DNA of 64,000 nucleotides, taken from assembly GCF_014196925.1 (NCBI RefSeq), contig NZ_JACIEN010000001.1, forward strand, positions 744,001-808,000. The letters are read 5' to 3'. Below the pieces are notes generated by a model that saw only the letters and a list, made by a program, of their open reading frames with translations, did no database searches and was not told where the DNA came from. Both the position numbers and the translations under genes were made by a program. This document shows positions 3,551 through 27,938 of this stretch, one piece after another. This DNA comes from Chelatococcus caeni (GTDB lineage: Bacteria; Pseudomonadota; Alphaproteobacteria; Rhizobiales; Beijerinckiaceae). Each line of letters starts with the position of its first letter. Within the stretch, counting starts at the first letter, position 1.

Positions 3551-3920
3551 GATCTCGCGCAGCTCGGTTCGGCGGTCGGGTGGGTGAAGCCGCTCCTGAA
3601 TTTCGCACTTGCATTAGTCTATAAAATCTATCAACATTATAGAATGATCATGACGGGTTGCACATTTCGTTCGGCCGTCGCCTTCGTTTCCCGATCAGGC
3701 AGGGGCCCATCCTTCCATGGCGCCTGCTTGGGTGGTGCCGTCCATCGAGCGCGGCCTGCTTTCGACCTTGTTGTCAGCGGCAGGGCTTCTCGGCGCGCTG
3801 CCCGCCGTAACACCGCCGAGGCGGACCTCCGCCTCTAATCCACGCCGTCCATCTTCCCCCGACACAGCGCCGGAGTTTCTCCGAAGGAGATTTCGCGCGC
3901 TCGAGCCGGTTCTGATCACC
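3551..3920. other. Promoter/leader region of sulfur operon A
   Basis: The 370 bases hold the Rrf2-type dyad (3612-3640), a perfect 8-bp hairpin with a CC loop at 3818-3835 (GAGGCGGA and TCCGCCTC), and a GAAGGAG sequence near 3885 that is about 30 bases from the likely ATG. A frame in phase with the next gene is open from 3717, but its extra 68 residues resemble no flavin monooxygenase, so I treat it as leader. Confidence 0.5.
3612..3640. promoter_or_regulatory. Putative Rrf2 operator, site 1 (operon A)
   Basis: Arms CATTAGTCTAT and ATCAACATTAT flank a 7-bp spacer. The 29-bp element matches the site at 27910-27938 (read on the minus strand) at 21 of 29 positions, including a continuous AGTCTATAAAATC. 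It also contains a TCTATAA/TTATAGA inverted repeat (3618-3624, 3637-3643). Assignment to the Rrf2 protein at 22292-22741 is inference from its own matching upstream site. Confidence 0.55.
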
Positions 3921-4925
3921 ATGCCATATGCACTCTCGCTTCTTGATAAGAGCCCCGTTCCCGAGGGGGCAACCGCGGCCGAGGCGCTCGGTCACACCAT
4001 CGCGCTCGCCAAGCGCGCCGAAGCCTTGGGCTATCGGCGTTTCTGGGTGGCTGAGCACCACGGCACGGAGCGTCACGCTTCCTCCGCGCCAGAGATACTG
4101 GTGGCCCATCTCCTGGCCCATACGTCGCGCATCCGCATCGGCTCCGGCGGGGTCATGCTGCAACACTACAGCCCCTACAAGGTGGCGGAGACCTTCAACG
4201 TGCTCGCGGCACTCGCGCCCGGCCGGGTCGACCTCGGTATCGGCAAGGCTCCGGGCGGCCTACCGCTGTCGACGAAGGCCCTGCAGGTTCTTCACGACAG
4301 GTCCGAGCCGCCGAGCTTCGCGTCGAGGCTGGCGGATCTCGACGCTTTCCTGACCGGTTTAACGGCGCCCGATCATCCGCTTGCGGGCGCAGTGGCAACG
4401 CCGATCCCGGCGGAGCCCCCGCAGCGCATCCTTCTCGGAACGGGGCCCGAGACGGCAACCCTGGCCGCGCAGCACGGCTGGGATTTCGCCTATGCCGGAC
4501 ATTTCGACGGCGATCCCGGCCATCTCGCCCGTTCGGTTGAGGCGTATCGTCAACTGACCGGCCGCGCTCCTCTGCTGGCGATCCATGCCTTCGCGGCCGA
4601 GACGCTGGAGGAAGCGCTGGCGCGCGTCGAGCGGTTGCGCATCTACAAGGTGCATCTGCCGAACGGGCAGAGCGCCAATGTGGGCACGCATGAGATGGCG
4701 GCGGAGTTCGCACGTCAGGCCGGCGCGGACGACTACCGCGTCGAGGAGCGAGTGCCCTACGTCGCGACCGGAACGGCTGAGCACGTGAAGCGCGAGCTCG
4801 ATGGCCTGGCGGCCCGTCATGGCATCCGCGAGTTCGTCATTGACCTCCCCGTAGCCGACCCGATCTCCCGCCTGTCGTCGATCGAACTTCTGGCGAGCGT
4901 CTACCAATCGTCTCTTGCAGTCTGA
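3921..4925 (+). CDS. LLM-class flavin-dependent monooxygenase, CmoO/YtmO-like
   Basis: A 334-residue bacterial-luciferase-fold monooxygenase of the MsnO8/group 1 type. It opens with LSLLDKSPVPEGATAAEALG, then RRFWVAEHHG (active-site HH), IRIGSGGVMLQHYSPYKVAE and GRVDLGIGKAPGG. The ATG at 3921 aligns with the family N-terminus, although the only good ribosome site is about 30 bases away. It leads an operon containing a second monooxygenase, an M20 deacylase, a GNAT acetyltransferase and a cystine-type importer, the composition of the B. subtilis S-alkylcysteine pathway in which YtmO (CmoO) oxidises the thioether. An FMN reductase is not in this operon; the one at 26914-27477 or a housekeeping reductase could supply FMNH2. 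The stop overlaps the upstream-most possible start of the next gene. Confidence 0.85.
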   Translation: MPYALSLLDKSPVPEGATAAEALGHTIALAKRAEALGYRRFWVAEHHGTERHASSAPEILVAHLLAHTSRIRIGSGGVMLQHYSPYKVAETFNVLAALAPGRVDLGIGKAPGGLPLSTKALQVLHDRSEPPSFASRLADLDAFLTGLTAPDHPLAGAVATPIPAEPPQRILLGTGPETATLAAQHGWDFAYAGHFDGDPGHLARSVEAYRQLTGRAPLLAIHAFAAETLEEALARVERLRIYKVHLPNGQSANVGTHEMAAEFARQAGADDYRVEERVPYVATGTAEHVKRELDGLAARHGIREFVIDLPVADPISRLSSIELLASVYQSSLAV

Positions 4926-4947
4926 ACAACGCGAGCGGAGCAGCGCG

Positions 4948-6294
4948 ATGAGCACCAATGACATCAGGTTCGGCATCATGTTGAACGGTGCCGGTGGCCA
5001 TATGAATTCCTGGAAACATCCAAGTGGTCCGGCGGATGCCAGCGTCAATCTCGATTTCTACGTCGAGACAGCGCGCAAGGCCGAGGACAACGGCATTGCC
5101 TTCGCCTTCGTCGCTGATGGGCTCTACATCAACGAAAAGTCCATCCCGCACTTCCTCAACCGCTTCGAGCCGCTGACGATCCTGTCGGCGCTCGCCACGC
5201 GGACGTCGAAGATCGGCCTCGCCGGCACCGTCTCGACCTCCTATTCGGACCCTTTCACCGTGGCGCGCCAGCTGGCGTCGCTTGATCTCATCAGCGGTGG
5301 GCGTGCCGGCTGGAACGTCGTGACGACGCCGCTGGAAGGCACAGCCAGGAACTACAGCCGGCAGCACCCGGAGCACGCGCTGCGCTACGAGATCGCCGAC
5401 GAATATCTGACGGTCGCGCAGGGCTTGTGGGACAGCTGGGATGATGACGCCTTCGTCCGCGACCGCGAGAGCGGGCAGTTCTTCGACAGCAGCAAGCTCC
5501 ATGCGCTCGATCACAACGGACGTTTCTTCCAGGTCGCCGGTCCGCTCAACATCGGCCGCTCGCCGCAAGGGCAGCCCGTCATCTTCCAGGCGGGATCCTC
5601 GGAGGCCGGCATCGGTCTGGCCGGCAAATATGCGGATGCGGTCTTCACCCATTCGCCCTCGCTCGAGGAGACTCGCGCCTTTCGCCAGCAGGTGAGGGCA
5701 AGTGCTGTAGCCCACGGCCGCCATGCCGACGACGTGAAGATCTTTCCAGGCATCGCTCCGATCGTGGGGGCGAGCGACGCCGAGGCGGAGGCGAAATACC
5801 GTGTGATCCGCGATCTCATCTCCATCGAGGAGGCGCTCGCCTATCTCGGCCGCTATTTCGATCATCACGACTTCAGCCAGTACCCGCTGGACGCGCCTTT
5901 CCCCGACATCGGCGATCTCGGCAAGAACAGCTTCCGTTCCACGACAGACCGCATCAAGGCGAACGCGCGCCGCAACGGCTCCACCCTGCGCGACGTGGCG
6001 CTCGAGGTAGCGACGCCGAAGCCCAATTTCATTGGCGCGGGCGAGACGGTCGCGGGCGAGATCATCCGCTGGATCGACGAAGGGGCGGCGGACGGCTTCA
6101 TCCTCGGCTTTTCCGTCATCGCCGAGGGGTTCGACGATTTCGCAGTCCACGTGCTGCCGGTGCTGGAGGCGCGCGGCCGCTACGCCCGCACGCTACCCGG
6201 CAAGACGCTGCGCGACCATCTCGGCCTGCCGCGCAAGGAGAGCCGCTATGCCGTCGGTGCGCCCGTGCCGGAGCAGAGGCGAGCGGCGCGATGA
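4948..6294 (+). CDS. NtaA/SnaA/DszA-family FMN-dependent monooxygenase, CmoJ/YtnJ-like
   Basis: A 448-residue luciferase-fold enzyme of the nitrilotriacetate/dibenzothiophene-sulfone monooxygenase group. Diagnostic stretches are NGAGGHMNSWKHPSG near the N-terminus, VSTSYSDPFTVARQLASLD, GRAGWNVVTTP, a QGLWDSWDDDAF segment, SPQGQPVIFQAGSSEAG and the C-terminal LRDHLGL. GCGGAG precedes the ATG at 4948; an in-frame upstream ATG at 4915 would overlap the previous gene. In the related Bacillus operon YtnJ (CmoJ) cleaves the C-S bond of N-acetylated S-substituted cysteines. Together with the M20 and GNAT genes that follow, the same role is likely here. Confidence 0.85.
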   Translation: MSTNDIRFGIMLNGAGGHMNSWKHPSGPADASVNLDFYVETARKAEDNGIAFAFVADGLYINEKSIPHFLNRFEPLTILSALATRTSKIGLAGTVSTSYSDPFTVARQLASLDLISGGRAGWNVVTTPLEGTARNYSRQHPEHALRYEIADEYLTVAQGLWDSWDDDAFVRDRESGQFFDSSKLHALDHNGRFFQVAGPLNIGRSPQGQPVIFQAGSSEAGIGLAGKYADAVFTHSPSLEETRAFRQQVRASAVAHGRHADDVKIFPGIAPIVGASDAEAEAKYRVIRDLISIEEALAYLGRYFDHHDFSQYPLDAPFPDIGDLGKNSFRSTTDRIKANARRNGSTLRDVALEVATPKPNFIGAGETVAGEIIRWIDEGAADGFILGFSVIAEGFDDFAVHVLPVLEARGRYARTLPGKTLRDHLGLPRKESRYAVGAPVPEQRRAAR

Positions 6295-7478
6295 CCGGCC
6301 GACTTTCCGGCATCGAGCGCGCCACGGCAGTCCAGGCGGCGATTGGCGCCTTCGCCGATGAATTCGTGGCGTTGCGGCGCGACCTCCACCGGCACCCGGA
6401 GCTGGCCTTCGAGGAGCATCGCACGAGCGCCATCGTGGCGGAGTTCCTTGCACGCTGGGGATATGAGGTGACCGCCGGCATCGGCGGCACCGGCGTCGTC
6501 GGTACGCTGCGGCGCGGCAACGGGCTGCGGCATCTCGGCCTCCGGGCCGACATGGACGCGCTGCCCATCATCGAGGCGACGGGGCTGCCCTGGGCGAGCC
6601 GGCAGACGGGCGCGATGCACGCCTGCGGCCATGATGGGCACACGGCGATTCTGCTCGCCGCGGCACGACACCTCGCCGAATCCGGCGACTTCAACGGCGC
6701 GCTTACCGTCATCTTCCAACCCGCCGAGGAAATCGGCGCCGGTGCGCGGCGCATGATCGGGGAGGGGCTCTTTGAGCGCTTTCCCTGTGATGCGGTTTTC
6801 GGCCTGCACAATTGGCCCGGCCTTGCGAACGGCCGTTTTGCCGTCATCGACGGCCCTGCAATGGCCGCGGTGGACAAGGCGCTCGTGACGGTGTGCGGCA
6901 AGGGCGGCCATGGCGCGGCCCCGCACGAGACGGTGGATCCCGTCGTGGCGAGCGCCCATGTGATTACCGCATTGCAGAGCATCGTGGCGCGCAACGTCGA
7001 TCCGCTCGACGCCGGCGTCGTCACGGTGGGCGCGATCCACGGCGGCTCGGCTTCCAACGTCATTCCCGACAGCGTGGAGATGAAGCTCACGCTGCGCTCC
7101 TTCCGGCCGGAGGTGCGTGCGCTGCTTGAAGCGCGTGTGCCGGCGCTGGTGCGCGCCCAGGCCGAAAGCTTCGGCGCCACGGCCGAGGTGACGTATCAGC
7201 GCGGCTTCCCGGCGGTCGTCAACCGTCCGGGCGACGCCGAGATCGTGCGTTCCGTCGTGGCGGAGAGCCACGGCGTGGCTGCGATCGCCGGCGATTTCCG
7301 GCCACGGACGGCGAGCGAGGACTTCGCCTTCTTCCTCGAAGAAAGGCCCGGCGCCTTCATCTTCGTAGGCAACGGCGACAGCGCGCCCTTGCACAGCCCG
7401 GCCTACGATTTCAACGACGCAAACCTCATCCCGGCGGCGACCGTCTGGGTCAGGCTCGCCGAGAGCTTCCTTTCCTGA
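6291..7478 (+). CDS. M20-family N-acyl amino acid amidohydrolase, SndA/YtnL-like
   Basis: 395 residues of the M20D aminoacylase/IAA-amino acid hydrolase type. Metal ligands are visible in MHACGHDGHTAILLA, in FQPAEEIGAGARRMIGEG and in the C-terminal RTASEDFAFFLEERPGAF. The dimerisation domain sits between about residues 190 and 300. Its ATG overlaps the preceding stop (ATGA), so translation is coupled. In the Bacillus S-alkylcysteine pathway the homologue removes the N-acetyl group after C-S oxidation, releasing cysteine; this is the probable role here. Other N-acyl amino acid substrates remain possible. Confidence 0.87.
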   Translation: MTGRLSGIERATAVQAAIGAFADEFVALRRDLHRHPELAFEEHRTSAIVAEFLARWGYEVTAGIGGTGVVGTLRRGNGLRHLGLRADMDALPIIEATGLPWASRQTGAMHACGHDGHTAILLAAARHLAESGDFNGALTVIFQPAEEIGAGARRMIGEGLFERFPCDAVFGLHNWPGLANGRFAVIDGPAMAAVDKALVTVCGKGGHGAAPHETVDPVVASAHVITALQSIVARNVDPLDAGVVTVGAIHGGSASNVIPDSVEMKLTLRSFRPEVRALLEARVPALVRAQAESFGATAEVTYQRGFPAVVNRPGDAEIVRSVVAESHGVAAIAGDFRPRTASEDFAFFLEERPGAFIFVGNGDSAPLHSPAYDFNDANLIPAATVWVRLAESFLS

Positions 7479-7505
7479 TCGACCATCTGTCGCGAGGCGA
7501 TGCGC

Positions 7506-8051
7506 ATGACCGACCAGTTCATCTACACGACCCCGCTCGATCCCCGCGCCACACCGCTGATCGAGGACCTGATCCACGAATATGACAGCCGCTACGGCGA
7601 TCTCTTCGACCGCGAGGGGGCGGTCGTGGAGCTCAACCGCTATCCGCCCGAGGCGTTCGCGCCGCCGGAGGGAAATTTCCTGCTTCTCCTGCGCGACGGA
7701 GAGACCATCGGTGGCGGCGCCTTCAAGCGCTATGACGCGACGACAGCGGAGTTCAAGCGCATCTGGACACGCCGCAATCTGCGTCGGCAGGGCCTGGCGC
7801 GCCGGCTCCTCGCGGAGCTCGAAGCGCAGGCGCTCCGTCAAGGTTACGCGCGCATCTATCTAACCACCGGTTTCCGGCAGCCGGAGGCGACGGGGCTTTA
7901 TCTCACCTCCGGCTATCGGGCCCTCTTCGATCCCGACGAGGACCTGGCGGTTCGGCGCAAGCTTCCCTTCGAGAAGGTGCTCGGTGTGGGGAAAGAACCG
8001 GTCGACCTTGCTCGCGCCGGCCCCGTGTCAACGAGCGTTCCTGCGGCCTGA
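7506..8051 (+). CDS. GNAT-family N-acetyltransferase, SnaA/YtmI-like
   Basis: 181 residues with a GNAT core: the acetyl-CoA pyrophosphate-binding loop is [18 protein letters not shown] around residue 100, followed by [26 protein letters not shown] is eight bases before the ATG at 7506 and only two before an alternative ATG at 7500, which favours 7506. In the pathway this operon resembles, the enzyme N-acetylates the S-alkylcysteine before the monooxygenase attacks it. The last 25 residues are low-complexity and probably unstructured. Confidence 0.8.
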
Positions 8052-8068
8052 GGCGTGGAGGACATCCC

Positions 8069-9937
8069 ATGAGCGCTTCCACCGACTTTGCCGACTTCAA
8101 GAAGATCGCTTCACCCCAGACGGAGGCGCGTGCTCGCGGCGACTATTCCCACTATCGCGTCGTGCCCGCGCGCTATCCGGCCCGCACTGTCGGCACCGTC
8201 TTCTCGCTCGTCATCATCGCTGCGGTGCTGAATTCCGTCCTCGGCAATCCGCGCTGGGGTTGGGACGTTTTCGCCGAATGGTTCTTCGCCGCACCGGTGC
8301 TCGAAGGTCTCGCTCGCACACTGGTGCTGACGCTCCTTGGCGCGCTCTTCGGCTTCGCCTTCGGAACGGTACTGGCGCTGGCGCGCGTTTCCCGCTCGCC
8401 GCTGCTCTCCGGCCTGTCGTGGACCTATATCTGGATCTTCCGGTCGATCCCGCTGATCGTCCTGCTCCTCATCCTCAACAATCTGGGCTATCTCTACGAG
8501 ACGGTCTGGCTCGGCGTTCCCTACACGGACATCACCTTCTTCAGCTACGCGACGACGCAGCTCATCAGCCCCTTCACGGCCGCCGTCATCGGTCTTGCGC
8601 TCAATCAGGCGGCCTTTGCTTCCGAGATCATCCGCGGCGGCATTCTGTCCGTCGACCAAGGCCAGCTGGAGGCGGCCGCGGCACTCGGACTGCCGCGCAC
8701 CCACCAGGCACGCCGCATCATCCTGCCTCAGGCGATGCGGACCATCCTGCCGACAGCCTTCAACGACATCATCGGCCTCGCGAAGGGCACCTCCAACGTC
8801 TACATCCTTGCGCTGCCGGAGCTCTTCTACACCATCCAAGTCATCTATCGGCGCAATCTCGAGGTCATTCCGCTGCTGATGGTGGCAACGGTCTGGTATC
8901 TCATCATCCTCACGGTGTTGTCGATCGTACAGGCGCAGGTGGAGCGGCACTTCGCCCGCGGTGCCCTGCGCAATCCGCCGCCGACATTGCTCTCGCTGCT
9001 GCTCGCCCGCCTGCGTCCGCATCAGACCGCGCAGGAGGTCACCGAGAGGCGCGCCGAGGCGGCTGAGCGCGGCACGGCTCCCACGCTGCCTGCAATGGGT
9101 TCTGGCCTGCATGGCCGCGTGTCGGCCGTGTCGGAGGTGCGCCGGCAGGCCGCGGCCTTTCCCCGGCGGCAGGGAGCGGTCGGCGAGATCACCATCCACC
9201 AGGTGTCCAAGAGCTTCGGCCATCTCAAGGTGCTTGATGACGTGACGCTGAGTGTGGCAGCCGGCAGCGTCACCGCCATCCTCGGGCAGTCCGGCTCGGG
9301 CAAGTCGACGCTGCTGCGCGCCATCAATCACCTGGAGCGGGTGGACGACGGATTCATCGCCATCGACGGGGAACTCGTCGGCTACAGGCAGGAGGGCGAC
9401 ACGCTCTACGAATTGAAGGAGCGGGACATCCTGCGGCGCCGGATCGAAATCGGCATGGTCTTCCAGACCTTCAACCTGTTCCCCCATCTCACGGCCCTGG
9501 AGAACGTCATCGAGGCGCCGATGGCCGTGCGCGGCATCGGCCGTGCCGAGGCCGAGGCCGAGGCGCACGATCTCCTCGCCCGTGTCGGGCTCGCCGACAA
9601 GGCGCTGGCCTATCCCCGCCAGTTGTCTGGCGGTCAGCAGCAGCGCGTCGCGATCGCGCGGGCTCTCGCTCTCAAGCCCAAGGTCCTGCTGTTCGACGAG
9701 CCGACGTCGGCGCTCGATCCCGAGCTCGTCAACGAGGTCCTCGACGTCATCAAGGAACTCGCGCGGTCGGGAACGACACTCGTCATCGTGACGCATGAAA
9801 TCGGCTTCGCGCGCGAGGTCGCAGACCAGGTGGTCTTCATGGAACGGGGACGCGTGCTCGAGACCGGAACGCCGGAGAAGGTCTTCAACCGGCCGGACCA
9901 CGTCCGCACGGCCGAGTTCCTCGCCAAGGTGCTCTGA
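8069..9937 (+). CDS. Fused amino-acid ABC permease and ATPase (cystine/TcyMN type)
   Basis: 622 residues in two parts. Residues 1-310 form a HisM/TcyM-type inner-membrane permease with several hydrophobic helices and the EAA loop [21 protein letters not shown] hydrophilic linker (about 310-375) leads to a polar-amino-acid ABC ATPase: Walker [11 protein letters not shown]-loop [10 protein letters not shown], signature LSGGQQQRV, Walker [15 protein letters not shown] and switch His in THEIG. In most relatives these are separate genes; fusion fixes stoichiometry. With the two binding proteins that follow it would import cystine or an S-substituted cysteine. GGAGG precedes the ATG. Confidence 0.9.
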
Positions 9938-10028
9938 ACCGCCTGCCGGCGTGTCGCCCGAAGGCTCGCTTCATCCGTGACGGCGCGGGTATGGCCGCGC
10001 TCACCCTCATCAACCGAAAGGATTGTTC

Positions 10029-10982
10029 ATGACCAGCAACCGTTCCAGCCGCCTGTCGAAGCTCGCCGCGCTTGCCGTGGGCGCCCTCGTCGCAACCGTT
10101 TCGATCCCGGCTCCTCAGGCCGGGGCGCAGGAGGTCGATCTGAGCCCTGCGCAGCCGGGCCGCATTCGCGCCGAGAAGGTACCGGAGGCCATCGCGCGGA
10201 TTTCGCCGGAATACAAGTTGGTGACGCCGGGCAAGCTTACCGTCGCCTCCGTTCCCGGTCGCCTGCCCTTCGCGGTCTATGCGACGGACGCCAGGACCCC
10301 CGTCGGCTCCGAGCCGGATCTTGCGCAACTCGTCGCCGACAGCCTCGGCCTCGAACTGCTGCTCGTCCCCGTCGCCTGGGCCGATTGGCCGCTCGGCCTT
10401 CAATCAGGCAAGTTCGACGCGGTCATCCATAACGTCACTGTGACGGAGGAACGCAAGGCCAAGTTCGACTTCTCCAGCTATCGGCAGGATCTGCTCGGCT
10501 TCTACGTCGCCACCACGAGCAAAATCACGGAGATCAGCAAGCCCGAAGACGTGGCCGGGCTCAAGATCATCGTCAGTTCCGGCACCAACCAGGAGCAGAT
10601 CCTGCTGCGCTGGATCGAAGATAACAAGGGCAAGGGCCTGCCGGTGACCGAGGTACAATATTACGACGACGAGGCGGTGCTCGACCTCGCCCTGCAGTCG
10701 GGCCGCGCCGACGCCTATCTCGGTCCAAACGCCACCTCGGCCTTCAAGGCGGCGCGGGAGAAGAAAACACGGCTCGTTGGTACCTTCGCCGGGGGGTGGC
10801 CGGCGACCGCCGAAATCGCGGTTGCCACCCGCAAGGGCGCAGGTCTTGCCGATGCCGTGACCACGGCGCTCAACGCGCAGATCAAGAACGGCAACTACGT
10901 CAAGCTGCTCTCCCGCTGGTGCCTCTCCTCCGAGGCGGTCGAGCAGTCGCGCACCAACCCGCCCGGCCTTGCCAAGTTCTGA
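10029..10982 (+). CDS. Periplasmic amino-acid-type solute-binding protein (first of two)
   Basis: 317 residues with a Sec signal peptide (SKLAALAVGALVATVSIPA, cleavage near AGAQ) and the type II binding-protein fold of the SBP_bac_3 family: PFAVYATDARTPVGSEPDLA, SGKFDAVIHNVTVTEERKAK, FDFSSYRQDLLGFYV. AAAGGA lies before the ATG at 10029. It is clearly paralogous to the next gene, sharing the SGK-DAVI-NV-VTEERK core and the C-terminal TNPPGLAKF. It delivers substrate to the fused permease-ATPase. Confidence 0.9.
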   Translation: MTSNRSSRLSKLAALAVGALVATVSIPAPQAGAQEVDLSPAQPGRIRAEKVPEAIARISPEYKLVTPGKLTVASVPGRLPFAVYATDARTPVGSEPDLAQLVADSLGLELLLVPVAWADWPLGLQSGKFDAVIHNVTVTEERKAKFDFSSYRQDLLGFYVATTSKITEISKPEDVAGLKIIVSSGTNQEQILLRWIEDNKGKGLPVTEVQYYDDEAVLDLALQSGRADAYLGPNATSAFKAAREKKTRLVGTFAGGWPATAEIAVATRKGAGLADAVTTALNAQIKNGNYVKLLSRWCLSSEAVEQSRTNPPGLAKF

Positions 10983-11007
10983 CCCCACGGCCCTAAAGGA
11001 TACCGTC

Positions 11008-11937: not shown

Positions 11938-11954
11938 GGCTGGGTGACGCCGCC

Positions 11955-14281: not shown

Positions 14282-14307
14282 GGTGTTGCGCTCCAGTGAA
14301 TGGGCAA

Positions 14308-18822: not shown

Positions 18823-18894
18823 GATCGTCTGTTCCGGAAGATTCCGAGGCCCATCGGACCGGAAGCGATCGCTCCGGGTCCGATGGCGGCATTG

Positions 18895-20541: not shown

Positions 20542-20628
20542 CGGATCACCTAGAATATGACGTTGTTGCGGCCTTGGCCGGACGGCAGCTCTCCGCTTCG
20601 GCAGAGGATGTCGTGACTGCCCCGATTC

Positions 20629-20660
20629 GGCCCCAGCGACGCCGTTGCGTGGCTGGGGCC
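20629..20660 (-). promoter_or_regulatory. Perfect 9-bp hairpin in the operon B leader
   Basis: GGCCCCAGC (20629-20637) and GCTGGGGCC (20652-20660) form a perfect stem with a 14-base loop, about 90 bases upstream of the binding-protein ATG and downstream of the dyad operator. No T-run follows on the transcribed strand, so it is not a standard terminator. It could stabilise the leader or take part in attenuation. Confidence 0.45.
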
Positions 20661-20708
20661 GACGCGACGCAAGGCATCGGTGCCAAACCATCACAATCCA
20701 TTAAATCC

Positions 20709-20737
20709 ATAATGTCTACTGAATTAATATAAATAAG
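20709..20737. promoter_or_regulatory. Putative Rrf2 operator, site 2 (operon B)
   Basis: Arms ATAATGTCTAC and ATATAAATAAG with a 7-bp spacer align with the other three sites in spacing and in the TCTA / AT-A-AT-A core. It is the weakest match of the four. It lies about 170 bases before the binding-protein ATG, in an AT-rich promoter-like stretch. An imperfect outer repeat (CACAATC near 20692 and GATTGTG near 20740) encloses it. Confidence 0.42.
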
Positions 20738-20839: not shown

Positions 20840-22222
20840 CTATAAAGGTCGCGTCGCGGCGTTATGGGTGGCCGTGTCATGGAGAATGCGCCGAGCGAGC
20901 CGGGAGCATTGCGTCCTGATGTCGGGGACGGCCACGATTTCCCAGAAGGCGGCGCGCGTGACGGGGCCGATGGCGAACAGCCGCGTGGATGCCCTGCCAT
21001 CATCGGCGATCAGTGCTCCGTCCGTCGCGACGTCGAGCCCGATGGCGAGCGGGTCGATCCGTGCGTGGCCACTGGCGAAGAGGGAGCGCAGAAGCGGGTT
21101 CTTCGTCTCCCGGGGATTCGTCACAATGCCGGTACACGACACGATCGCGTCGACATCGAGCGTCTCCTCGCGTCGCTCGCCCCGACGACGGAAGCGCACC
21201 CGTGCCCCGCTGCCGCGCTCCTCGCTCGCGACCATCTTCCCGGCGAAAAGCTGGACGCGGCCGGTCGCCAGCGCCGCCCTGAGCCGCGTGTCGACCTCCG
21301 GGGGCGTGCGGTGGCGATGAACGTCCCACCATGCACGGGCGTGGGCCATGAAGCGCCGCTTCGAGCCTTCCGAGAAACTCTGCCAGATGCGTTGCGTATG
21401 CGGGCGCAGTCCATCAATGACGCTGCGCCAATCCTCGCCGCGTCCCTCGGCCCAGGCGATCGTCTCGCGCAGCCAATGCATGAAGTAGCTGATATCGGTG
21501 CCGAAGGGAATGTCGGCGGCATCGATGGTCATCGGCGCCACGCGGCGATGCACCTGCGGCAGGAGGCCCCGGCGCGACATCGCGACGATGGGGCCGCGGT
21601 GCCCCGCATCGAGGAGCGACAGCACATAGTCCACCATCGTGAGCCCCGTGCCGAGGATGAGCACCGTAGCCTCGGGATCGATGCCGGAAACGGACGGCGA
21701 GACCCATGGGCTGACGTGGCAGCCGTCCTGGCGCGGTTCCTCGTGGCCGGTAGCGAGGACCGCGACGTGGCCGGGGACGCTGGTGCCGTCGTCCAGACGC
21801 ACCTCGACCCCCAAGGGCCGCTCGGCGATATCGATGCAGGTGCCCTGTACGATCGACAGCCGCCCGGGCCGACCGGTACCGGGCAGGTGCGGTTCGATGA
21901 GGCTGCGCAAATAAGACCCATAGGCGCTGCGCGGGGCGAAGAAGAACGGTTCGGCGTCTTCGGTACCCGCGAGCCTGCCGGTTCTGACGAGCCAATGCCA
22001 GAAGTGCTGCGGCTCGTCGGCGAAGGCGCCCATATTGGCGGCCGCCACGTTGAGCAGGTGGTTGCTGCTCGGGGCCGAGAAGGCGACGCCGGGACCGGGC
22101 TCATCGCGCTGCTCGATCAGGGTGATCCGGAGATCGGGGAGCGGCTCGCGCAGCAGATGGCAGGCAAGCAGGGTGCCGCTTGCACCGCCTCCGATGATGA
22201 TCACGCGCGGGGTCGACAGCAT
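20840..22222 (-). CDS. FAD/NAD(P)-binding oxidoreductase (NAD_binding_9 type)
   Basis: 460 residues. The N-terminal dinucleotide fold reads VIIIGGGASGTLLACHLLRE, followed by EPGPGVAFSAPSSNHLLNVAAANMG, a signature of the HcbG/NAD_binding_9 group. A second GxGxT segment (ATVLILGTGLTMVDYVLSLL) near residue 195 would bind NAD(P). It lies 69 bases downstream of the rrf2 gene on the same strand and may be co-transcribed. Relatives occur next to organosulfur and sulfonate monooxygenase genes, so a redox role in sulfur scavenging is plausible; the reaction is unknown. Confidence 0.8.
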   Translation of the reverse strand: MLSTPRVIIIGGGASGTLLACHLLREPLPDLRITLIEQRDEPGPGVAFSAPSSNHLLNVAAANMGAFADEPQHFWHWLVRTGRLAGTEDAEPFFFAPRSAYGSYLRSLIEPHLPGTGRPGRLSIVQGTCIDIAERPLGVEVRLDDGTSVPGHVAVLATGHEEPRQDGCHVSPWVSPSVSGIDPEATVLILGTGLTMVDYVLSLLDAGHRGPIVAMSRRGLLPQVHRRVAPMTIDAADIPFGTDISYFMHWLRETIAWAEGRGEDWRSVIDGLRPHTQRIWQSFSEGSKRRFMAHARAWWDVHRHRTPPEVDTRLRAALATGRVQLFAGKMVASEERGSGARVRFRRRGERREETLDVDAIVSCTGIVTNPRETKNPLLRSLFASGHARIDPLAIGLDVATDGALIADDGRASTRLFAIGPVTRAAFWEIVAVPDIRTQCSRLARRILHDTATHNAATRPL

Positions 22223-22291: not shown

Positions 22292-22741
22292 TCAGATGTG
22301 GTAGATGAACTCCAACTCTCTGACGGTGCCGAGCGCGCGCATGTCCGCGAGACTGCGCTCGTCCAGCACGGCTGCGATGGCGTTACGCACATCCAGCATC
22401 ATCAGGCGCACGGAGCAGTGCTCCTCCGAGGCGCAGTCGTCGCAAGGCTCGTAGCGTGTACGACTGGCGCAAGGGATCGGCGCCAAAGGTCCATCGAGGA
22501 CCCGAATAACCTGCCCCACAGAGATGTCGTGAGCGGGGCGGGCCAGGCGATAGCCGCCCTGCTTGCCCTTGCGGCTCTGAACGAAGCCGGCATTGCGCAG
22601 TTCGGCGAGAATCGCGTCGAGAAACTTCTTCGGAATGCTCTCCGCTTCGGCAATGTCCGAAACCTGTGCTAGTTCCTCACGTCCGAGACCTGCAAGGTGG
22701 ACAAGGGCCTTGAGGCCATACTTCCCTTTTTTTGTCAGCAT
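22292..22741 (-). CDS. Rrf2-family transcriptional regulator with four-cysteine cluster motif
   Basis: 149 residues. The winged helix lies in the first 75 (LTKKGKYGLKALVHLAGL, then SIPKKFLDAILAELRNAGFV and RKGKQGGYRLARP). Residues 91-109 carry C91, C100, C103 and C109 (C-x8-C-x2-C-x5-C), positioned like the Fe-S ligands of IscR/RirA-type members, so Fe-S or cysteine sensing is likely. CymR, another member, controls cysteine metabolism. A near-perfect inverted repeat 29-59 bases upstream of the ATG suggests autoregulation, and similar sites precede the three sulfur operons. No clear ribosome site is visible. Confidence 0.88.
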   Translation of the reverse strand: MLTKKGKYGLKALVHLAGLGREELAQVSDIAEAESIPKKFLDAILAELRNAGFVQSRKGKQGGYRLARPAHDISVGQVIRVLDGPLAPIPCASRTRYEPCDDCASEEHCSVRLMMLDVRNAIAAVLDERSLADMRALGTVRELEFIYHI

Positions 22742-22800: not shown

Positions 22801-22841
22801 GGGCCTTTGCCCCGCTCCGTCGAGCGGCCACCGTGCCGCAG

Positions 22842-24194
22842 CTACGCGAATTCGAGCACCTGTCGCGCCGGATCGAAGAAGCGGTTCGCCGGACGCTCGA
22901 GCCCGTAGTGATCGCGCAGGGTGCGGCCGTCATAGCGTGTCCGGAACAATCCGCGTTTCTGCAGGATCGGGACGACCTCCTGCGCGAAGACATCGAACAG
23001 ATAAGGAAGGATCGGCGGCATCACGTTGAAGCCGTCGGCGGCGCCGCTCTCGAACCAGTCCGCAATGATGGCGGCAATCTGCTCGGGCGTGCCGACGGCG
23101 GTCAGGTGCCCCCGCGCCCCCGCTAGGCTGTGGAGCAGGGCGCGCAATGTCGGGCGCTCGCGCCTGACGAGGGCGATGATCACCTCCGTGCGGCTGCGGG
23201 CGGCCTGGACGGTCTCGGGATCGGGGAAGTCGTCGACCGACAGCACAGCGTCGAGGTCGAGATGGGAGAAATCGTGCCCGCCGAAGCGATTGGACAGGTG
23301 CTCGAGCCCGACGGCCGGAACTGTCAGCTCGTTTAGCTCGCGGTTGAGGCGCTCGGCTTCCGCCTCGGTAGAGCCGAGCACGGGGCTGATGCCGGGCAGG
23401 ATGACAATCTCGTCCGGCAACCGCCCGAGGGCAGCCGCCTGATCCTTGATGTCGGCGTAGAAGGCGGCGGCGGCCGCCTTCTCGAGATGGGCCGTAAAGA
23501 TCGCTTCGGCATGGGTGGCAGCAAAGCGCCGCCCGGTCGTCGATGAACCCGCCTGGACGAAGACGGGCCGGCCCTGGGGGGGCCGAGCGATGTTCAAGGG
23601 GCCGCGCACCTTGTGCCAGCGCCCGACGTGGTCAATGCGCCGGATGCGCGCCGGCTCAGCGTAGCGGCCCGCGCGGCGATCGTCGCGAACGGCATCGTCG
23701 GCCCAGCTGTCCCAGAGTTTGGAGACGACCTCTACGAACTCGGTCGCTCGCTCGTAACGCTCGGCATGCTCGATCTGGTGGTCATAGCCGAAGTTCGGCC
23801 CTGCGCCCGTGACCCAGGAGGTGACGATGTTCCAGCCGATCCGACCGTTGCTGATGTGATCGAGCGAGGCGAACTGGCGCGCGAGATTATAGGGCTCGGT
23901 ATAGGTCGTCGAGGCGGTGGCGATAAGGCCGAGCCGTTCAGTGACGCCGGCGAGGGCCGCGAGCGTCGTCAGCGGCTCGAGCCCGCCGCGCGCGTTGTGC
24001 TCGACTTCGTGACCGATGGCAAGCGCATCGGCGAAGAAGATTGCGTCGAACAGGGCGGCCTCGGCGCGGCGCGCCAGATCCTGATAATAGCTGATGTCCG
24101 TCAGGGACTGCGGCGTGGCGGCAGGATGGCGCCAGGCGGCCTCATGGTGGCCGCGACCATGGACGAAGAGATTGAGGTGGAGCTGTCTGGTCAT
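22842..24194 (-). CDS. DszA/NtaA/SnaA-family FMN-dependent monooxygenase
   Basis: 450 residues of the same broad group as the gene at 4948-6294: LHLNLFVHGRGHHEAAWRHP at the N-terminus, FDAIFFADALAIG, ASTTYTEPYNLARQFASLD, GRIGWNIVTSWVTGAGPNFG, a SKLWDSWADDAV segment and RPPQGRPVFVQAGSS. It terminates operon C, 29 bases after the SsuB-like ATPase. The usual partner of such an importer is SsuD (about 380 residues, different motifs); here a DszA/DmoA-type enzyme replaces it, suggesting a substrate such as a sulfone, sulfide or bulky sulfonate. FMNH2 would come from the reductase heading the operon. Confidence 0.87.
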   Translation of the reverse strand: MTRQLHLNLFVHGRGHHEAAWRHPAATPQSLTDISYYQDLARRAEAALFDAIFFADALAIGHEVEHNARGGLEPLTTLAALAGVTERLGLIATASTTYTEPYNLARQFASLDHISNGRIGWNIVTSWVTGAGPNFGYDHQIEHAERYERATEFVEVVSKLWDSWADDAVRDDRRAGRYAEPARIRRIDHVGRWHKVRGPLNIARPPQGRPVFVQAGSSTTGRRFAATHAEAIFTAHLEKAAAAAFYADIKDQAAALGRLPDEIVILPGISPVLGSTEAEAERLNRELNELTVPAVGLEHLSNRFGGHDFSHLDLDAVLSVDDFPDPETVQAARSRTEVIIALVRRERPTLRALLHSLAGARGHLTAVGTPEQIAAIIADWFESGAADGFNVMPPILPYLFDVFAQEVVPILQKRGLFRTRYDGRTLRDHYGLERPANRFFDPARQVLEFA

Positions 24195-24223
24195 GACGGT
24201 TCTCCCGGGTCGGGTTGCGGCTG

Positions 24224-24964
24224 TCAGGCGTAGACGCCGAGCGCCGCGAGAAGGCTTCGGCGAAGGTTTTCATGGCGGCCGTCAGAGGCGCGCCGCGGGT
24301 GAGGAAGGTCGACGGTCCGGTCGAGCACGATGCGGCCGTCCTCCATGACGAGCACGCGATCAGCAAGCGTGAGCGCCTCGTCGACGTCATGCGTGACGAG
24401 GAGCACCGTCGGCTTGTACTTGCCGATCAACTGGAACAGCAGCGCGTGCATGCGCAGGCGGGTCAGCGCGTCGAGCGCACCGAAGGGTTCGTCAGCGAGC
24501 AGCAGTTCCGGGGCTTGTGCTAGCGAGCGCGCAAGGGCGACGCGCTGCTTCTCGCCACCGGACAGGGTCTCCGGCCAGGCGGCCTCCCGGCCGGCGAGGC
24601 CGACATCTGCGAGCAACTTGAGGGCTCGCGTCCGGGCGTCGGAAGCCTGCAGGCCGAGCATCACGTTGTCGAGGACGCGCGCCCAGGGCAGCAGCCGCGC
24701 ATCCTGGAAAAGCACCGACGATTTCGCCGGTACGTCGAGGCTGCCGCTCCGTTCCGCATCATCATCGAGCCGGGCGAGTGCCCTGAGCAGAGTGCTCTTG
24801 CCCGAACCGCTGCGGCCGATAAGGGCGACGAACTCGCCCGCCCGGATGGAGAGCGTGATGCCGTCGAGGATCGGGCGGCGGCCGAAGCCCCGGGCGAGGC
24901 CATCGAGTGCGACCGCGACGGGACGGGCGATCGACTCGGTGGTTTCGAGGCGCAGCAGGGTCAT
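24224..24964 (-). CDS. Sulfonate-type ABC transporter ATPase, SsuB-like
   Basis: 246 residues with Walker A IGRSGSGKST, Q-loop LFQDARLLPW (the DARLLPW form is typical of SsuB/TauB), signature LSGGEKQRV, LLLADEPFGALDALTR and THDVDEAL. The start overlaps the permease stop (ATGA at 24961-24964). It drives uptake through the SsuC-like permease. Confidence 0.92.
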   Translation of the reverse strand: MTLLRLETTESIARPVAVALDGLARGFGRRPILDGITLSIRAGEFVALIGRSGSGKSTLLRALARLDDDAERSGSLDVPAKSSVLFQDARLLPWARVLDNVMLGLQASDARTRALKLLADVGLAGREAAWPETLSGGEKQRVALARSLAQAPELLLADEPFGALDALTRLRMHALLFQLIGKYKPTVLLVTHDVDEALTLADRVLVMEDGRIVLDRTVDLPHPRRASDGRHENLRRSLLAALGVYA

Positions 24965-25833
24965 GATCCGATCACCTTACGGTAGGCGAGCGCCCGGCGT
25001 TCCCACCAGCGGACGGCGCTGTCGGAGACAAGGCCGAGAACGGCATAGACGACGAGCCCCACCACGATGACGTCCGTCTGGCCGTAGTCGCGCGCGCGGT
25101 TCATCAGGTAGCCGATGCCTTCCGTCGTATTGATCTGCTCGAGAACGACGAGGGCCGTCCAGCACATGGTTACGGCGAGCCTCAGGCCGGTGAAGAAGCC
25201 CGGCAGGGCGCCCGGCAGGGCGACGCGGCGGATGAACTGCGCCCGCGACAACCCGACCGTGCGGGCGAGCTCGACGTAGCGAAGATCGATGCCGCGCAGC
25301 GCGGCATGGGTGTTGATATAGACCGGAACCAGCACGCTCGTGACGATGAGGGCGATCTTCATCGTCTCGCCGATGCCGAGCCACAGGATGGCGAGCGGGA
25401 TGAGCGCCAGCGTCGGGATGGCGCGCTTGATCTGCACGAGACCGTCGATGGTTGCCTCGCCGAGTCGCGTCAGGCCGGCAATGAGCGCGAGAATGAGACC
25501 GAGGGCGACGCCGATGGCAAGGCCGAGGTAAGCCCGTTCGGCCGAGGCGAGGAAGTGCTGCTGCAGCACGCCGTCGATCATCAGGTCATAGCCGGTCACG
25601 ACTGCCGTCGAAGGTGCGGCGAGCAGGCGAGGGGACAACAGCCCGGTCAGCGAGGCGAGTTCCCAGATCGCCAGAACGAGGACCGGGCCGAACAGGTGAC
25701 CGCCTGGGCCGAGCCGCCGCGGCGTAAGGGGCCGCGCAGTGCGCTCTGCCGCACCGGGCTTAGGCACAGCCTTGCCCGAAAAGCCGTGCCAGGCGGGGTC
25801 CGAGTAGAACTCGTGCGGGGACAGAATGGTCAT
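24961..25833 (-). CDS. Sulfonate-type ABC permease, SsuC-like
   Basis: 290 residues. The ATG at 25833 (MTILSPHEFYSDPAWHGFSG) has GAGGGAG upstream; a longer frame to 25863 lacks one. A long hydrophilic N-terminus of about 55 residues precedes six helices (LFGPVLVLAIWELASLTGLL onwards) and the EAA loop ELARTVGLSRAQFIRRVALP. It belongs to the nitrate/sulfonate/taurine permease group. Confidence 0.9.
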   Translation of the reverse strand: MTILSPHEFYSDPAWHGFSGKAVPKPGAAERTARPLTPRRLGPGGHLFGPVLVLAIWELASLTGLLSPRLLAAPSTAVVTGYDLMIDGVLQQHFLASAERAYLGLAIGVALGLILALIAGLTRLGEATIDGLVQIKRAIPTLALIPLAILWLGIGETMKIALIVTSVLVPVYINTHAALRGIDLRYVELARTVGLSRAQFIRRVALPGALPGFFTGLRLAVTMCWTALVVLEQINTTEGIGYLMNRARDYGQTDVIVVGLVVYAVLGLVSDSAVRWWERRALAYRKVIGS

Positions 25834-25866
25834 GGCTCGCTCCCTCGTCATCCGTCGCGGCACTTT

Positions 25867-26868
25867 TCAGTCTCTGGTCGCCGCGGCAATGACGGCGTCA
25901 AAGCGCAGGTCGAACTGCCTGGACGCATCGAGGCGCTCCGGCAGGTCACCCGCCTCGTGGATGATGTCGACCAGCTCCTGCTGGCGCGGCACGAGCTCGG
26001 ACAGCAGCGGGAAGGTCGGCTCGCCCTCGGAGACGGCGATGGCGCGTCCGTCGGCAGCCGACAGGCGCTGGCGATCCACGAAATAGGCCTTGACCCAGGC
26101 GTCGGTGTTGGCGGCGGCCCAACGCTTCGCCGTGATCCAACGCGTCACGAAATCGCGAATAGCGGCGGCCTTGCCGGGCTCGGAGAGCGCCTTGGTGCTG
26201 GCGTAGAGATAGGACAGGCGCCGCGGCAGCCGGTCGTGCTCGCTATCGGGAAGTGCGCTTGCCCCCTCGGTGTCGGCGAGGTAGCGCGAGAAGTGGGGCT
26301 CGTTCAGGACGGCCACATCGACCTGCCCGGTGCGGATCGCATCCGGGAAATCGGAAACGCGCAGAGGCACGAGGACGACGTCCTTGCGCGTCAACCCTGC
26401 GGCCTTGAGCGCATGCAGCACGAACGGCTGCCGACCGGTGCCCTCGGCGTAGGAGATGCGCTTGCCCTTGAGATCCTCGAGCGTCTTCACCGTCAGGCCG
26501 GGCCGGACGGCGAGCGAATAGTCGACGACCGCGCTCGTCACCGCCGCGACGATCGGAATGGCCTCGCCCGCCGCCTGCGCCTGGATGGGGGGCGTGTTGC
26601 CTACGGAAGCGAGATCGAGGGCGCCCGCACGGAAGGCCTCCAGGATGGCAGGTCCACCGAGAAAATTGGCGTAGGTGACGTCGGCAACAAACCTGTCCTG
26701 CTCGCCGGAAGCCTTCATGAGCGTCTGCAGGGCCTCGTTCTGGTCGGCGACAACCAGTTTCGTGCCGGGCGGCACATCGCGCGGCACGGCGTCGTTCGCT
26801 GCCCCGGCCGGCGATGATCCGACGGCGGCGGCGAGCATGAGGGCTGCGAGCCCGATCTTGAGGGTCAT
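25867..26868 (-). CDS. Sulfonate-type periplasmic binding protein, SsuA-like
   Basis: 333 residues with a signal peptide (LKIGLAALMLAAAVGSSPAG, cleavage near AGAAN). Family features: ALDLASVGNTPPIQAQAAGE, LEDLKGKRISYAEGTGRQPF and VDVAVLNEPHFSRYL. AGGAG precedes the ATG. It lies 45 bases after the FMN reductase gene and 33 bases before the permease. Confidence 0.9.
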   Translation of the reverse strand: MTLKIGLAALMLAAAVGSSPAGAANDAVPRDVPPGTKLVVADQNEALQTLMKASGEQDRFVADVTYANFLGGPAILEAFRAGALDLASVGNTPPIQAQAAGEAIPIVAAVTSAVVDYSLAVRPGLTVKTLEDLKGKRISYAEGTGRQPFVLHALKAAGLTRKDVVLVPLRVSDFPDAIRTGQVDVAVLNEPHFSRYLADTEGASALPDSEHDRLPRRLSYLYASTKALSEPGKAAAIRDFVTRWITAKRWAAANTDAWVKAYFVDRQRLSAADGRAIAVSEGEPTFPLLSELVPRQQELVDIIHEAGDLPERLDASRQFDLRFDAVIAAATRD

Positions 26869-26913
26869 GGACGATCTCTCCTGGCCGTGATCTGGCCGTG
26901 ATGTTCCCGGCGC

Positions 26914-27477
26914 TCAGGCGACGCGGGCGACCGGCCGGCGGTCGGTGTTGCCGAGCGACAGCAGCCGGTCGAACTCGAAGGCGGCGTCCGCAACGCGCTG
27001 CTGCAACGGGGGTGACAGCGCACCGTCGGCGAAATCCTCTCTGCCGGCATAGACGGCGGTCGGCACGGTCTGGGCGCCGAAGAAGCCGAACAGCGGCCGG
27101 AGCTGATGTTCGACGACGAGCGCGTGGCGATGGCCACCGCCCGTTGCCGAGGCGATCACCGGCTTGCCCGCCAGGGCGTGCGGCTCGACGAGATCGAAGA
27201 GGTGCTTGAAGAGCCCGGTGTAGGAGCCCTTGTAGACCGGGCTGCCGACGATGAGGCCGTCAGCCGCCTCGATCGCATGGATGACTGCTGCGGCACGCGG
27301 CGCGAGCGCGTCGCGACTGAAGGCGCTGATCTCCTCGCCAATGTCGAGGAGATCGAACACATCGAGATCGATGCTGCGCCAGCCGCCCACTTCGGCGGCG
27401 ATGGCTTCAACGAGGAACCGCGTGCGGGACGGGCGATGCGTGTTGCCGCTCACGGCGACGATGCTCAACCGGCTCAT
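26914..27477 (-). CDS. NADPH-dependent FMN reductase, MsuE/SsuE-like
   Basis: 187 residues of the flavodoxin-like reductase family: LSIVAVSGNTHRPSRTRFLV (flavin phosphate loop), then ADGLIVGSPVYKGSYTGLFK and GKPVIASATGGGHRHALVVE. It supplies FMNH2 to the monooxygenases of operon C. GGGAGG is six bases before the ATG, and the ATG is overlapped by the stop of a 53-codon upstream ORF (ATGA). An in-phase open frame continues upstream about 80 codons but has no ATG, GTG or TTG. Confidence 0.9.
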   Translation of the reverse strand: MSRLSIVAVSGNTHRPSRTRFLVEAIAAEVGGWRSIDLDVFDLLDIGEEISAFSRDALAPRAAAVIHAIEAADGLIVGSPVYKGSYTGLFKHLFDLVEPHALAGKPVIASATGGGHRHALVVEHQLRPLFGFFGAQTVPTAVYAGREDFADGALSPPLQQRVADAAFEFDRLLSLGNTDRRPVARVA

Positions 27478-27692: not shown

Positions 27693-27702
27693 AAGGCGCC
27701 TT
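27693..27702. promoter_or_regulatory. Palindrome downstream of the Cys-Cys leader peptide
   Basis: AAGGCGCCTT, a perfect 10-bp palindrome, begins 12 bases after the leader peptide stop on the transcribed strand. It could form part of an attenuator or anti-attenuator helix, but no T-run follows. Confidence 0.3.
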
Positions 27703-27713
27703 ACGCCCGAGCC

Positions 27714-27752
27714 TCAGCTACGACAGCAGGCCCTCGCGAGAAAACGTGGCAT
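27714..27752 (-). CDS. Putative cysteine-sensing leader peptide MPRFLARACCRS
   Basis: A 12-residue ORF (ATG at 27752, TGA at 27714-27716) with GAGAGG six bases upstream. Two adjacent Cys codons (TGC TGT) sit near its end, as expected for a leader peptide whose translation reports cysteinyl-tRNA supply. It lies in the 5' leader of a sulfur-acquisition operon, between a SAM-II riboswitch and the first genes. Cysteine-rich leader peptides ahead of sulfur genes are known in other bacteria; this particular one is inference from sequence. Confidence 0.6.
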   Translation of the reverse strand: MPRFLARACCRS

Positions 27753-27777
27753 CTGCAACCTCTCGATCGTAGACCAC

Positions 27778-27796
27778 GAGGCGGAGGTTCGCTCCG
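27778..27796 (-). promoter_or_regulatory. Hairpin between riboswitch and leader peptide
   Basis: On the transcribed strand CGGAG and CTCCG pair around a five-base loop directly after the riboswitch core. It may be the expression platform or a stabilising element. The GGAG inside the stem could also be a sequestered ribosome site. Confidence 0.35.
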
Positions 27797-27797
27797 T

Positions 27798-27850
27798 GGC
27801 GCTTTAGCGTTTGATGACGCGGCGCAAGCTGCAATCTCAAATCACCGCGG
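27798..27850 (-). ncRNA. SAM-II riboswitch
   Basis: The minus strand reads CGCGG TGATTTG ... GCTTGCG CCGCG TCATCAAA CGCTAAAG. This matches the SAM-II (metA/metX) aptamer: helix P1 formed by CGCGG and CCGCG, conserved UGAUUU at the start of loop 1, UUGC just before the P1 3' strand, a CAAA segment that can pair with UUUG in the loop (P2 pseudoknot), and the terminal GCUAAA. SAM-II elements are typical of alphaproteobacteria and usually precede methionine biosynthesis genes. Here it lies about 320 bases upstream of the FMN reductase ATG on the same strand, so operon C is probably shut down by S-adenosylmethionine. Confidence 0.8.
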
Positions 27851-27874
27851 CGCCCGCTCCGTTCGAGCGGGCGC
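27850..27874 (-). promoter_or_regulatory. Perfect 10-bp GC-rich hairpin just 5' of the riboswitch
   Basis: GCGCCCGCTC (27850-27859) and GAGCGGGCGC (27865-27874) pair around a five-base loop. It abuts the P1 helix and probably protects the transcript 5' end or insulates aptamer folding. Confidence 0.5.
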
Positions 27875-27909
27875 AACTCATAGCAACACGGGTGCCGGCG
27901 AGTGTCAAC

Positions 27910-27938
27910 CTAATCTCTATCGATTTTATAGACTTTAG
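27910..27938. promoter_or_regulatory. Putative Rrf2 operator, site 4 (operon C)
   Basis: Arms CTAATCTCTAT and ATAGACTTTAG (9 of 11 positions complementary) surround a 7-bp spacer. It lies just upstream of the leader hairpin and riboswitch, where the operon C promoter must be. Its minus-strand 13-mer AGTCTATAAAATC is identical to that at site 1 and has the same orientation relative to the downstream operon. Confidence 0.62.

Follow-up and report, generated by a model that had tools for sequence, protein, structure and literature searches.

Four predicted operators of an Rrf2-family sulfur regulon in Chelatococcus caeni

The locus and its four operator sites

The stretch of DNA analyzed here, referred to as the window, is 64,000 nucleotides of Chelatococcus caeni (C1:744001-808000 of a 5.43 Mb genome in 19 contigs). 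It holds three operons of monooxygenase and ABC importer genes, here called A, B and C, and a gene, rrf2, for an Rrf2-family regulator. Upstream of each of these four lies a dyad, and the core that the four dyads share is TCTA-N9-TAGA. Judged by sequence, it is very probable that the dyads are operators of an autoregulated Rrf2 sulfur regulon, with repression and sensing as the more conjectural parts of that reading. In the lines below, LLM stands for luciferase-like monooxygenase and SBP for substrate-binding protein; scores are those of a matrix described further on.

3612..3649, plus strand: operator 1, an overlapping pair with cores at 3618-3634 and 3627-3643 (TCTATCAACATTATAGA), upstream of operon A; 26.9 and 32.5 bits
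20700..20738, minus strand: operator 2, an overlapping pair with cores at 20706-20722 and 20715-20731, upstream of operon B; 19.8 and 27.8 bits
22770..22800, minus strand: operator 3, a perfect 11-bp dyad, TATTATTTCTA-N9-TAGAAATAATA, upstream of rrf2; 31.4 bits
27909..27939, minus strand: operator 4, with core TCTATCGATTTTATAGA at 27916-27932, upstream of operon C; 37.0 bits, the best match in the window
22292..22741, minus strand: rrf2, encoding a 149-aa Rrf2-family regulator with four cysteines (91, 100, 103, 109)
3717..12977, plus strand: operon A, with luciferase-type and NtaA/DmoA-type monooxygenases, amidohydrolase, GNAT protein and cystine-type ABC importer
13664..20694, minus strand: operon B, with TIGR04028 SBP, two permeases, double ABC ATPase, TIGR04027 LLM and TIGR04029 CMD protein
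22842..27477, minus strand: operon C, with FMN reductase, SsuA-, SsuC- and SsuB-like importer and NtaA/DmoA monooxygenase
20840..22222, minus strand: gene for a NAD_binding_9 FAD/NAD(P) protein, directly after rrf2

Operon A encodes an MsnO8-type LLM (its true start is probably near 3930), an NtaA/DmoA monooxygenase, an amidohydrolase, a GNAT protein, a 622-aa protein with an ABC ATPase at its C-terminus, two cystine-type SBPs and an LLM oxidoreductase, a set that we take to resemble the ytmI/yxeK-type operons of Bacillus subtilis. One of the operon B permeases is encoded at 17878-18822 and the other inside 17021-19441.

Three exact copies of the core occur in the 64 kb, at 3627 (operon A), 22777 (rrf2) and 27916 (operon C), each upstream; the operon B site, at 20715, has the form TCTA-N9-TATA. 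When spacers of 0 to 24 were counted in the window, spacer 9 gave three matches, spacers 16 and 18 gave one each, and the others gave none. The first-pass annotation had described the sites as two 11-base arms around a 7-base spacer. Its four 29-mers lie where it put them, with TCTA at arm positions 7-10 in all four; sites 1 and 4 are identical at 21 of 29 positions, and the 13-mer AGTCTATAAAATC occurs in both, in the same orientation to the operon, and nowhere else on either strand of the window. The arms it drew pair at 4, 6, 10 and 9 of 11 positions in sites 1 to 4, respectively, a layout that suits sites 3 and 4 and fails site 1. Site 3, described as a perfect 11-bp dyad, is one only when read with the 9-base spacer listed above; as first written, 10 of 11 positions pair. 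Site 1 had been placed in its weaker register, and the better one, at 3627-3643, lies 9 bp downstream. “Immediately upstream” is a loose description of operator 4, which stands ~430 bp before the FMN reductase start with a structured leader between. Site 2 is, as claimed, the weakest, with TATA in place of TAGA and the lowest matrix score of the four, and the rrf2 product is indeed 149 aa long. In essence the earlier finding is correct; what is amended here is the register of site 1 and the arrangement at operon C. The paired registers of operators 1 and 2 overlap, in both cases with an offset of 9 bp. Seven distinct tandem 9-bp pairs were found among 133 strong sites, and self-similarity of the motif alone predicts 0.4%–3.2%, which is only suggestive of tandem operators as a real feature.

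Could four such sites arise by chance in AT-rich DNA? A matrix was built from 10 groups of sites from Mesorhizobium, Labrys, Aminobacter and a Rhizobiaceae metagenome-assembled genome, with Chelatococcus held out. Overlapping registers apart, it ranks the four places first to fourth in the window (37.0, 32.5, 31.4 and 27.8 bits). The next scores are those of the second register of site 1 (26.9), position 28595 (21.8), the 20706 register of site 2 (19.8), and position 28064 (14.5, a weaker operator-like match), followed by 8.4; the top score in 30 simulated windows was 17.1. With 200 column-permuted matrices, the sites took a mean of 1.35 and a maximum of three of the top four matches, and no score exceeded 24.1, against 37.0 for the real matrix. 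Thus, AT-richness explains part of the signal but not all of it. Position 28595 was not accepted as a further site: its core is TATA-N9-TTGA, and it lies in an AT-rich patch with a TTGACA before unidentified small open reading frames (ORFs).

Related genomes, the Rrf2 protein and the rival readings

The same operator is found in related genomes. An exact site is present in 62 of 80 loci that carry the closest homologs of rrf2 (the best 80 of 516), and a homolog of the NAD_binding_9 gene follows rrf2 in 17 of the 80. Spacer 9 accounts for 69 matches in these loci, spacer 16 for 43 and other spacers for 0-8 each; the count for spacer 16 arises because the same Mesorhizobium sites bear a second TCTA, three bases ahead of the core. 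Because the loci are largely homologous, this spectrum does not count as independent evidence. The Mesorhizobium group of sites lies upstream of a sulfate/thiosulfate operon in the two annotated species, M. ciceri and M. amorphae. In examples chosen by eye, the M. ciceri order is sbp-cysTWA-cysP followed by rrf2, and the Labrys sites stand by sfnB-sfnB-ssuD-ntaA and the FAD gene. Other contexts include NMT1-type binding proteins with ssuBC-like genes, and in C. composti the sites precede operon C and rrf2. A Labrys homolog of operon A (L187:3989) has a 24.7-bit operator-like site near the start of the permease-ATPase gene, after the GNAT gene.

A reciprocal test used a matrix from six Chelatococcus sites to score all 31 places that match the pattern with ≤3 mismatches in two of the four genomes with complete match lists (17 in M. 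amorphae, 14 in Aminobacter aganoensis). The scores show a gap between 25.0 and 18.8, with eight places above it; some of the eight helped to choose the pattern, and none trained the Chelatococcus matrix. Two adjoin cysG operons (in Aminobacter, cysG is followed by a nitrite/sulfite reductase-type gene), two adjoin FMN reductase-NtaA operons like operon C, one a sulfate importer (SBP-cysT) and one an NMT1 SBP with an ABC ATPase. The remaining two lie beside ~310-aa proteins that are weakly LLM-like (27%–29% similarity; the one that was scanned has no NCBIfam match at 1e-20). The 23 places below the gap have only scattered ABC or LLM similarity nearby. The first-pass annotation had proposed a matrix scan for enrichment before sulfur genes, and such a scan leads to them in both directions, by held-out ranking in the window and by sulfur neighbors in relatives. 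What places the operator before sulfur genes in related genomes is the matrix score; raw counts of the pattern do not.

Why assign the motif to Rrf2 and not to another sulfur regulator? The link is drawn because the site is kept upstream of rrf2 orthologs. We examined 20 rrf2 loci (~20 kb each, except for two that are shorter) in 19 genomes from the family of C. caeni, drawn from the 58 genomes, among 149, with a match at E ≤ 1e-45. In 11 of the 20, the top-ranked match of the locus lies in the 420 bp upstream of rrf2, and in 15 at least one of the top three does; permuted matrices on the same loci gave a mean of 2.4 and a maximum of 6 for rank 1 and a mean of 5.1 and a maximum of 11 for the top three. 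Tolerated variation at these loci looks like TCYA-N9-TRGA. In C. composti, an exact site stands 52 bp upstream of rrf2. Among genomes hand-picked from the family list, the 12 with a close ortholog have 33 matches (31 for the reversed control) and the 10 without have 3 (11 for the control), which agrees weakly with an Rrf2 link and is suggestive at most. Orthologs also occur on plasmids, and five of nine such loci have a match above 18 bits: a Mesorhizobium plasmid (34.3 bits, before an LLM oxidoreductase and an ABC binding protein), Shinella (28.3 bits, before tauA) and S. americanum (31.0 bits, before a TauD-type dioxygenase and a sulfonate binding protein, and 24.7 bits before a Crp/Fnr gene), all near the rrf2 ortholog; Sinorhizobium meliloti pSymB, where the ortholog (62.5%) is beside an SfnB gene and a weak 19.0-bit site lies between the SfnB and FAD genes; and an unannotated Ensifer record with one match. 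Reciprocal matrix tests and sites before rrf2 orthologs together support the earlier proposal of one autoregulated Rrf2 sulfur regulon.

The protein itself matches the Rrf2 superfamily model TIGR00738 (123.0 bits, cut-off 73.3) and falls below the cut-offs of the CymR model NF047409 (87.0 bits versus 195) and of the IscR, NsrR and RirA equivalogs (TIGR02010, 69.7 versus 207.55; NF008240, 68.0 versus 182; NF008886, 70.6 versus 193). Its nearest named relative is that of C. composti (93% identity). Across an alignment of 102 sequences, among them a paralog from the source genome, cysteines 91, 100, 103 and 109 never vary; conserved cysteine ligands are what iron-sulfur (Fe-S)-binding Rrf2 regulators have, and a bound cluster or metal is plausible here. 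The solved structures nearest by sequence are 4CIC and then CymR 2Y75, and alignments with these two show no cysteines matching the four-cysteine segment. The source genome has three further Rrf2-type matches. One paralog (C1:1523101-1523511), also with four cysteines, is 45%–46% identical and heads an rrf2-sbp-cysTWA sulfate operon. Neither the paralog nor its operon has an operator-matrix match above 15 bits, and the paralog may use another motif.

How would the regulon work? A dimer of the 149-aa Rrf2 protein would bind the TCTA-N9-TAGA dyad, with a consensus of about TAAnTCTAYnAAnTTnRTAGAnTTA. When sulfur is sufficient, Rrf2 would repress its own gene and three operons for organosulfur import and oxidative desulfurization; on sulfur limitation it would leave, and the promoters would open. 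The four invariant cysteines may form the sensor, as an Fe-S cluster, a metal site or a thiol site. The same protein-operator pair would serve a wider regulon in other Hyphomicrobiales, covering sulfate import, siroheme synthesis/sulfite reduction, sulfonates and SfnB-type genes. The sign of control is taken from CymR-like biology and from promoter position, and a repressor released on sulfur limitation is the most likely form.

Several observations weigh against this reading. Scans of the genome by IUPAC pattern, with the reversed pattern as control, found the exact core at 8 places (control, 8) and TAANTCTA-N9-TAGANTTA with ≤3 mismatches at 6 (control, 11), and in a scan of eight genomes the reversed control exceeded the pattern in all eight. 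Raw enrichment of the pattern was rejected as proof, with counts at or below those of the controls. The training sites of the held-out matrix had been picked for the exact core. Position 28595, which is not clearly a site, scores above all simulations, and the source genome's cysG and sulfate-importer operons have no match above 15 bits. The exact core is present in only 2 of the 20 same-family rrf2 loci and lacking in 18, and 18 of the 80 close-homolog loci lack an exact site; 46 sites of these 80 loci form one homologous Mesorhizobium group, and some control words are similarly frequent in the homologous loci (ATCT-N15-AGAT, 90; CATA-N9-TATG, 48). Plasmid loci of Haematobacter, Azospirillum and Aureimonas have no match above 9 bits, and Tistrella has none above 16.2. 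The signal is one of location and full matrix score rather than of raw counts. Four of the six places found with ≤3 mismatches are the four sites (site 2 as its 20706 register), within a 24-kb stretch that makes up 0.45% of the genome (binomial probability ~6e-9, uncorrected for the choice of region in the first-pass annotation). That annotation had named a pattern equally common elsewhere as grounds for giving up its inference; by raw counts the pattern is that common, and by matrix score and position it is not.

Four other explanations can be set beside a repressed, autoregulated regulon. First, Rrf2 may bind as an activator, or the sign may differ by promoter, as it does for IscR. At operon C the operator comes directly before a conserved TTGACA, where activation is as conceivable as repression. 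We consider this somewhat unlikely, since a site before a regulator's own gene usually points to autorepression and the functional analog CymR represses, according to passages of PMC3828012. Second, only sites 1, 3 and 4 may be operators, with site 2 a degenerate relic and operon B under other control. Its broken half-site core (TATA for TAGA) and lowest score fit this idea and count against a four-site regulon. Nevertheless, site 2 is still the fourth-best separate place in the window, and its second register is offset by 9 bp as in site 1; the relic reading is unlikely. Third, the dyads may be real sulfur operators bound by another regulator, an Rrf2 paralog or a member of another family, with rrf2 only one of its targets. 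Three more Rrf2-type matches, the closest of which heads a sulfate importer operon, give this some footing; it is made quite improbable by sites upstream of rrf2 orthologs in divergent genera, even where rrf2 stands alone, by the lack of matches above 15 bits near the paralog and its operon, and, as a suggestion only, by the fewer matches relative to control in genomes without an ortholog. Fourth, chance dyad-like strings from AT-rich intergenic patches in a GC-rich genome agree with the raw counts and with the preference of permuted matrices for the same places (1.35 of 4), but are hardly credible given the held-out ranking, the permuted-matrix limits and the reciprocal recovery of sulfur genes.

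The operon C leader and an aptamer cassette across the order

Between operator 4 and operon C lies a leader with three further features. SAM denotes S-adenosylmethionine.

27880..27908, minus strand: candidate promoter TTGACA-N17-TGCTAT, adjoining operator 4
27784..27858, minus strand: SAM-II-like aptamer, 27.5 bits against RF00521, below the gathering score of 36
27714..27752, minus strand: leader ORF MPRFLARACCRS, 12 codons with Cys-Cys and a Shine-Dalgarno-like GAGAGG; its C. composti counterpart is MSRFLMRACCRS

C. composti retains the core of operator 4, TTGACA and TGCTAT amid diverged flanks; a scan for strict consensus promoters listed none at 27880..27908. The RF00521 match has an E-value of 0.02 for 32 kb and 7.8e-4 for the genome. 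At E ≤ 1 the model matches 10 of 14 control genomes, and at 0.002 it matches none of the 14. The C. composti aptamer scores 28.3 bits, likewise below the gathering score. The order of operator 4, aptamer, Cys-Cys ORF and operon C holds for the leader, and both aptamer and ORF are kept in C. composti. The aptamer would add an RNA layer to the control of this operon. The leader's fold is no more stable than those of shuffles (z = −1.28; 21 of 200 as good). The aptamer pseudoknot can pair in the variant loci (2.92 of 4), not above shuffles.

Similar arrangements occur elsewhere. In a third Chelatococcus genome, an operator (35.7 bits), an aptamer and a Cys-rich ORF lie ~1.1 kb before a MetN-like gene. 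A regular expression finds a second aptamer core in the same 18-kb stretch (L228). Within the family, an operator of at least 27 bits lies 74-131 nt upstream of the aptamer in 6 of 26 loci, three from Chelatococcus and three from one other genus. The genes downstream of 18 variant loci encode an ABC ATPase or permease in 15 and MetQ in one; the other two (L267 and L275) have unidentified ORFs followed by a lipid A acyltransferase. The Rfam cut-off for RF00521 is reached in 0 of 20 variant loci. A model built from 19 variant aptamers matches, at E ≤ 1e-4, 48 of 249 genomes and 21 of 112 genera of the order, although the weakest matches may be something else. At 30 order-wide loci (L284-L313, some near-identical), a Cys-Cys leader ORF follows the aptamer in 11, versus 8 of 540 control windows, and an Rrf2-type operator above 18 bits lies 47-100 nt upstream in 6 (four of one genus), versus 6 of 330 control windows; permuted matrices gave a mean of 0.15 and a maximum of 3 operators at these loci. 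The idea that Cys-Cys ORFs belong to the Rrf2 regulon in general was rejected, with no such ORF at the 44 entries for strong sites from outside Chelatococcus, some of which are redundant. By eye, seven loci (L265, L268, L269, L272, L274, L278 and L282) lack the Rrf2 operator and carry another AT-rich dyad (about TTCTTTTTAnAGAACG) before the −35 element, as if another regulator held the same seat.

It is possible, though in our judgment slightly short of an even chance, that the promoter-leader cassette of the order stacks three sulfur sensors: an Rrf2 operator, a SAM-II-like aptamer and a Cys-codon leader peptide. These would read, respectively, the sulfur status of the cell, SAM or a related metabolite, and charged tRNA-Cys. 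The aptamer would most often sit 74-86 nt downstream of the operator, and the stack would usually precede MetN/MetQ-type importers, in Chelatococcus also driving the organosulfur operon. If so, the gate would open fully only with total sulfur, SAM and cysteine all in short supply. We lowered our estimate because the genes behind the operator-bearing aptamers at L267 and L275 are not identified as sulfur genes. Elsewhere in the window, a 718-aa ORF at 33460-35616 on the minus strand has an autotransporter beta-domain.

Comparison with known systems

The coordination of organosulfur use in alphaproteobacteria seems to be little documented. No Rrf2 regulator of sulfur assimilation in alphaproteobacteria was found among the literature matches listed, in a searched literature that leaves out most subscription journals and in which IscR and RirA iron papers are present; nor was a report of an operator-aptamer-leader peptide stack found there. 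With operator and protein both defined, the question can be tested directly, in S. meliloti too. In the operon C leader, elements of protein, RNA and peptide control are stacked in an unusual way, and its aptamer lies below current annotation cut-offs.

How do the parts compare with characterized relatives? The aptamer shares with SAM-II (RF00521) the core motifs GGTGATTTGA, GCTTGC and CGCTAAAG. According to parts of PMC9373788, SAM-II elements of S. meliloti lie upstream of metA and metZ and control them, whereas the variant described here mostly precedes MetN/MetQ-type ABC importers and, in Chelatococcus, operon C. The leader ORF resembles uORFC-8-2, described in sections of PMC8632094 as the Cys-Cys leader ORF of cysS in Rhodobacterales: both are short alphaproteobacterial leader ORFs with two tandem cysteine codons, but the ORF here is preceded by an Rrf2 operator with a SAM-II-like aptamer and is followed by operon C rather than cysS.

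Like IscR, NsrR and RirA, the regulator belongs to the Rrf2 family and has its cysteines in the C-terminal half. In contrast to these proteins, its four invariant cysteines are spaced C-x8-C-x2-C-x5-C, and its predicted targets concern sulfur rather than Fe-S clusters, iron or nitric oxide; the ligands of NsrR are three cysteines and one aspartate, as given in part of PMC5411485. With CymR of Bacillus and Staphylococcus it shares the family and, as predicted, the control of sulfur scavenging. CymR acts with CysK and O-acetylserine (PMC3828012), whereas the genes adjoining rrf2 here are not cysK, and when the protein is aligned with 2Y75 most of the four-cysteine segment falls in a gap. On these sequence comparisons, the Rrf2 protein of C. 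caeni is an analog of CymR rather than CymR itself and represents a separate alphaproteobacterial branch with four cysteines.

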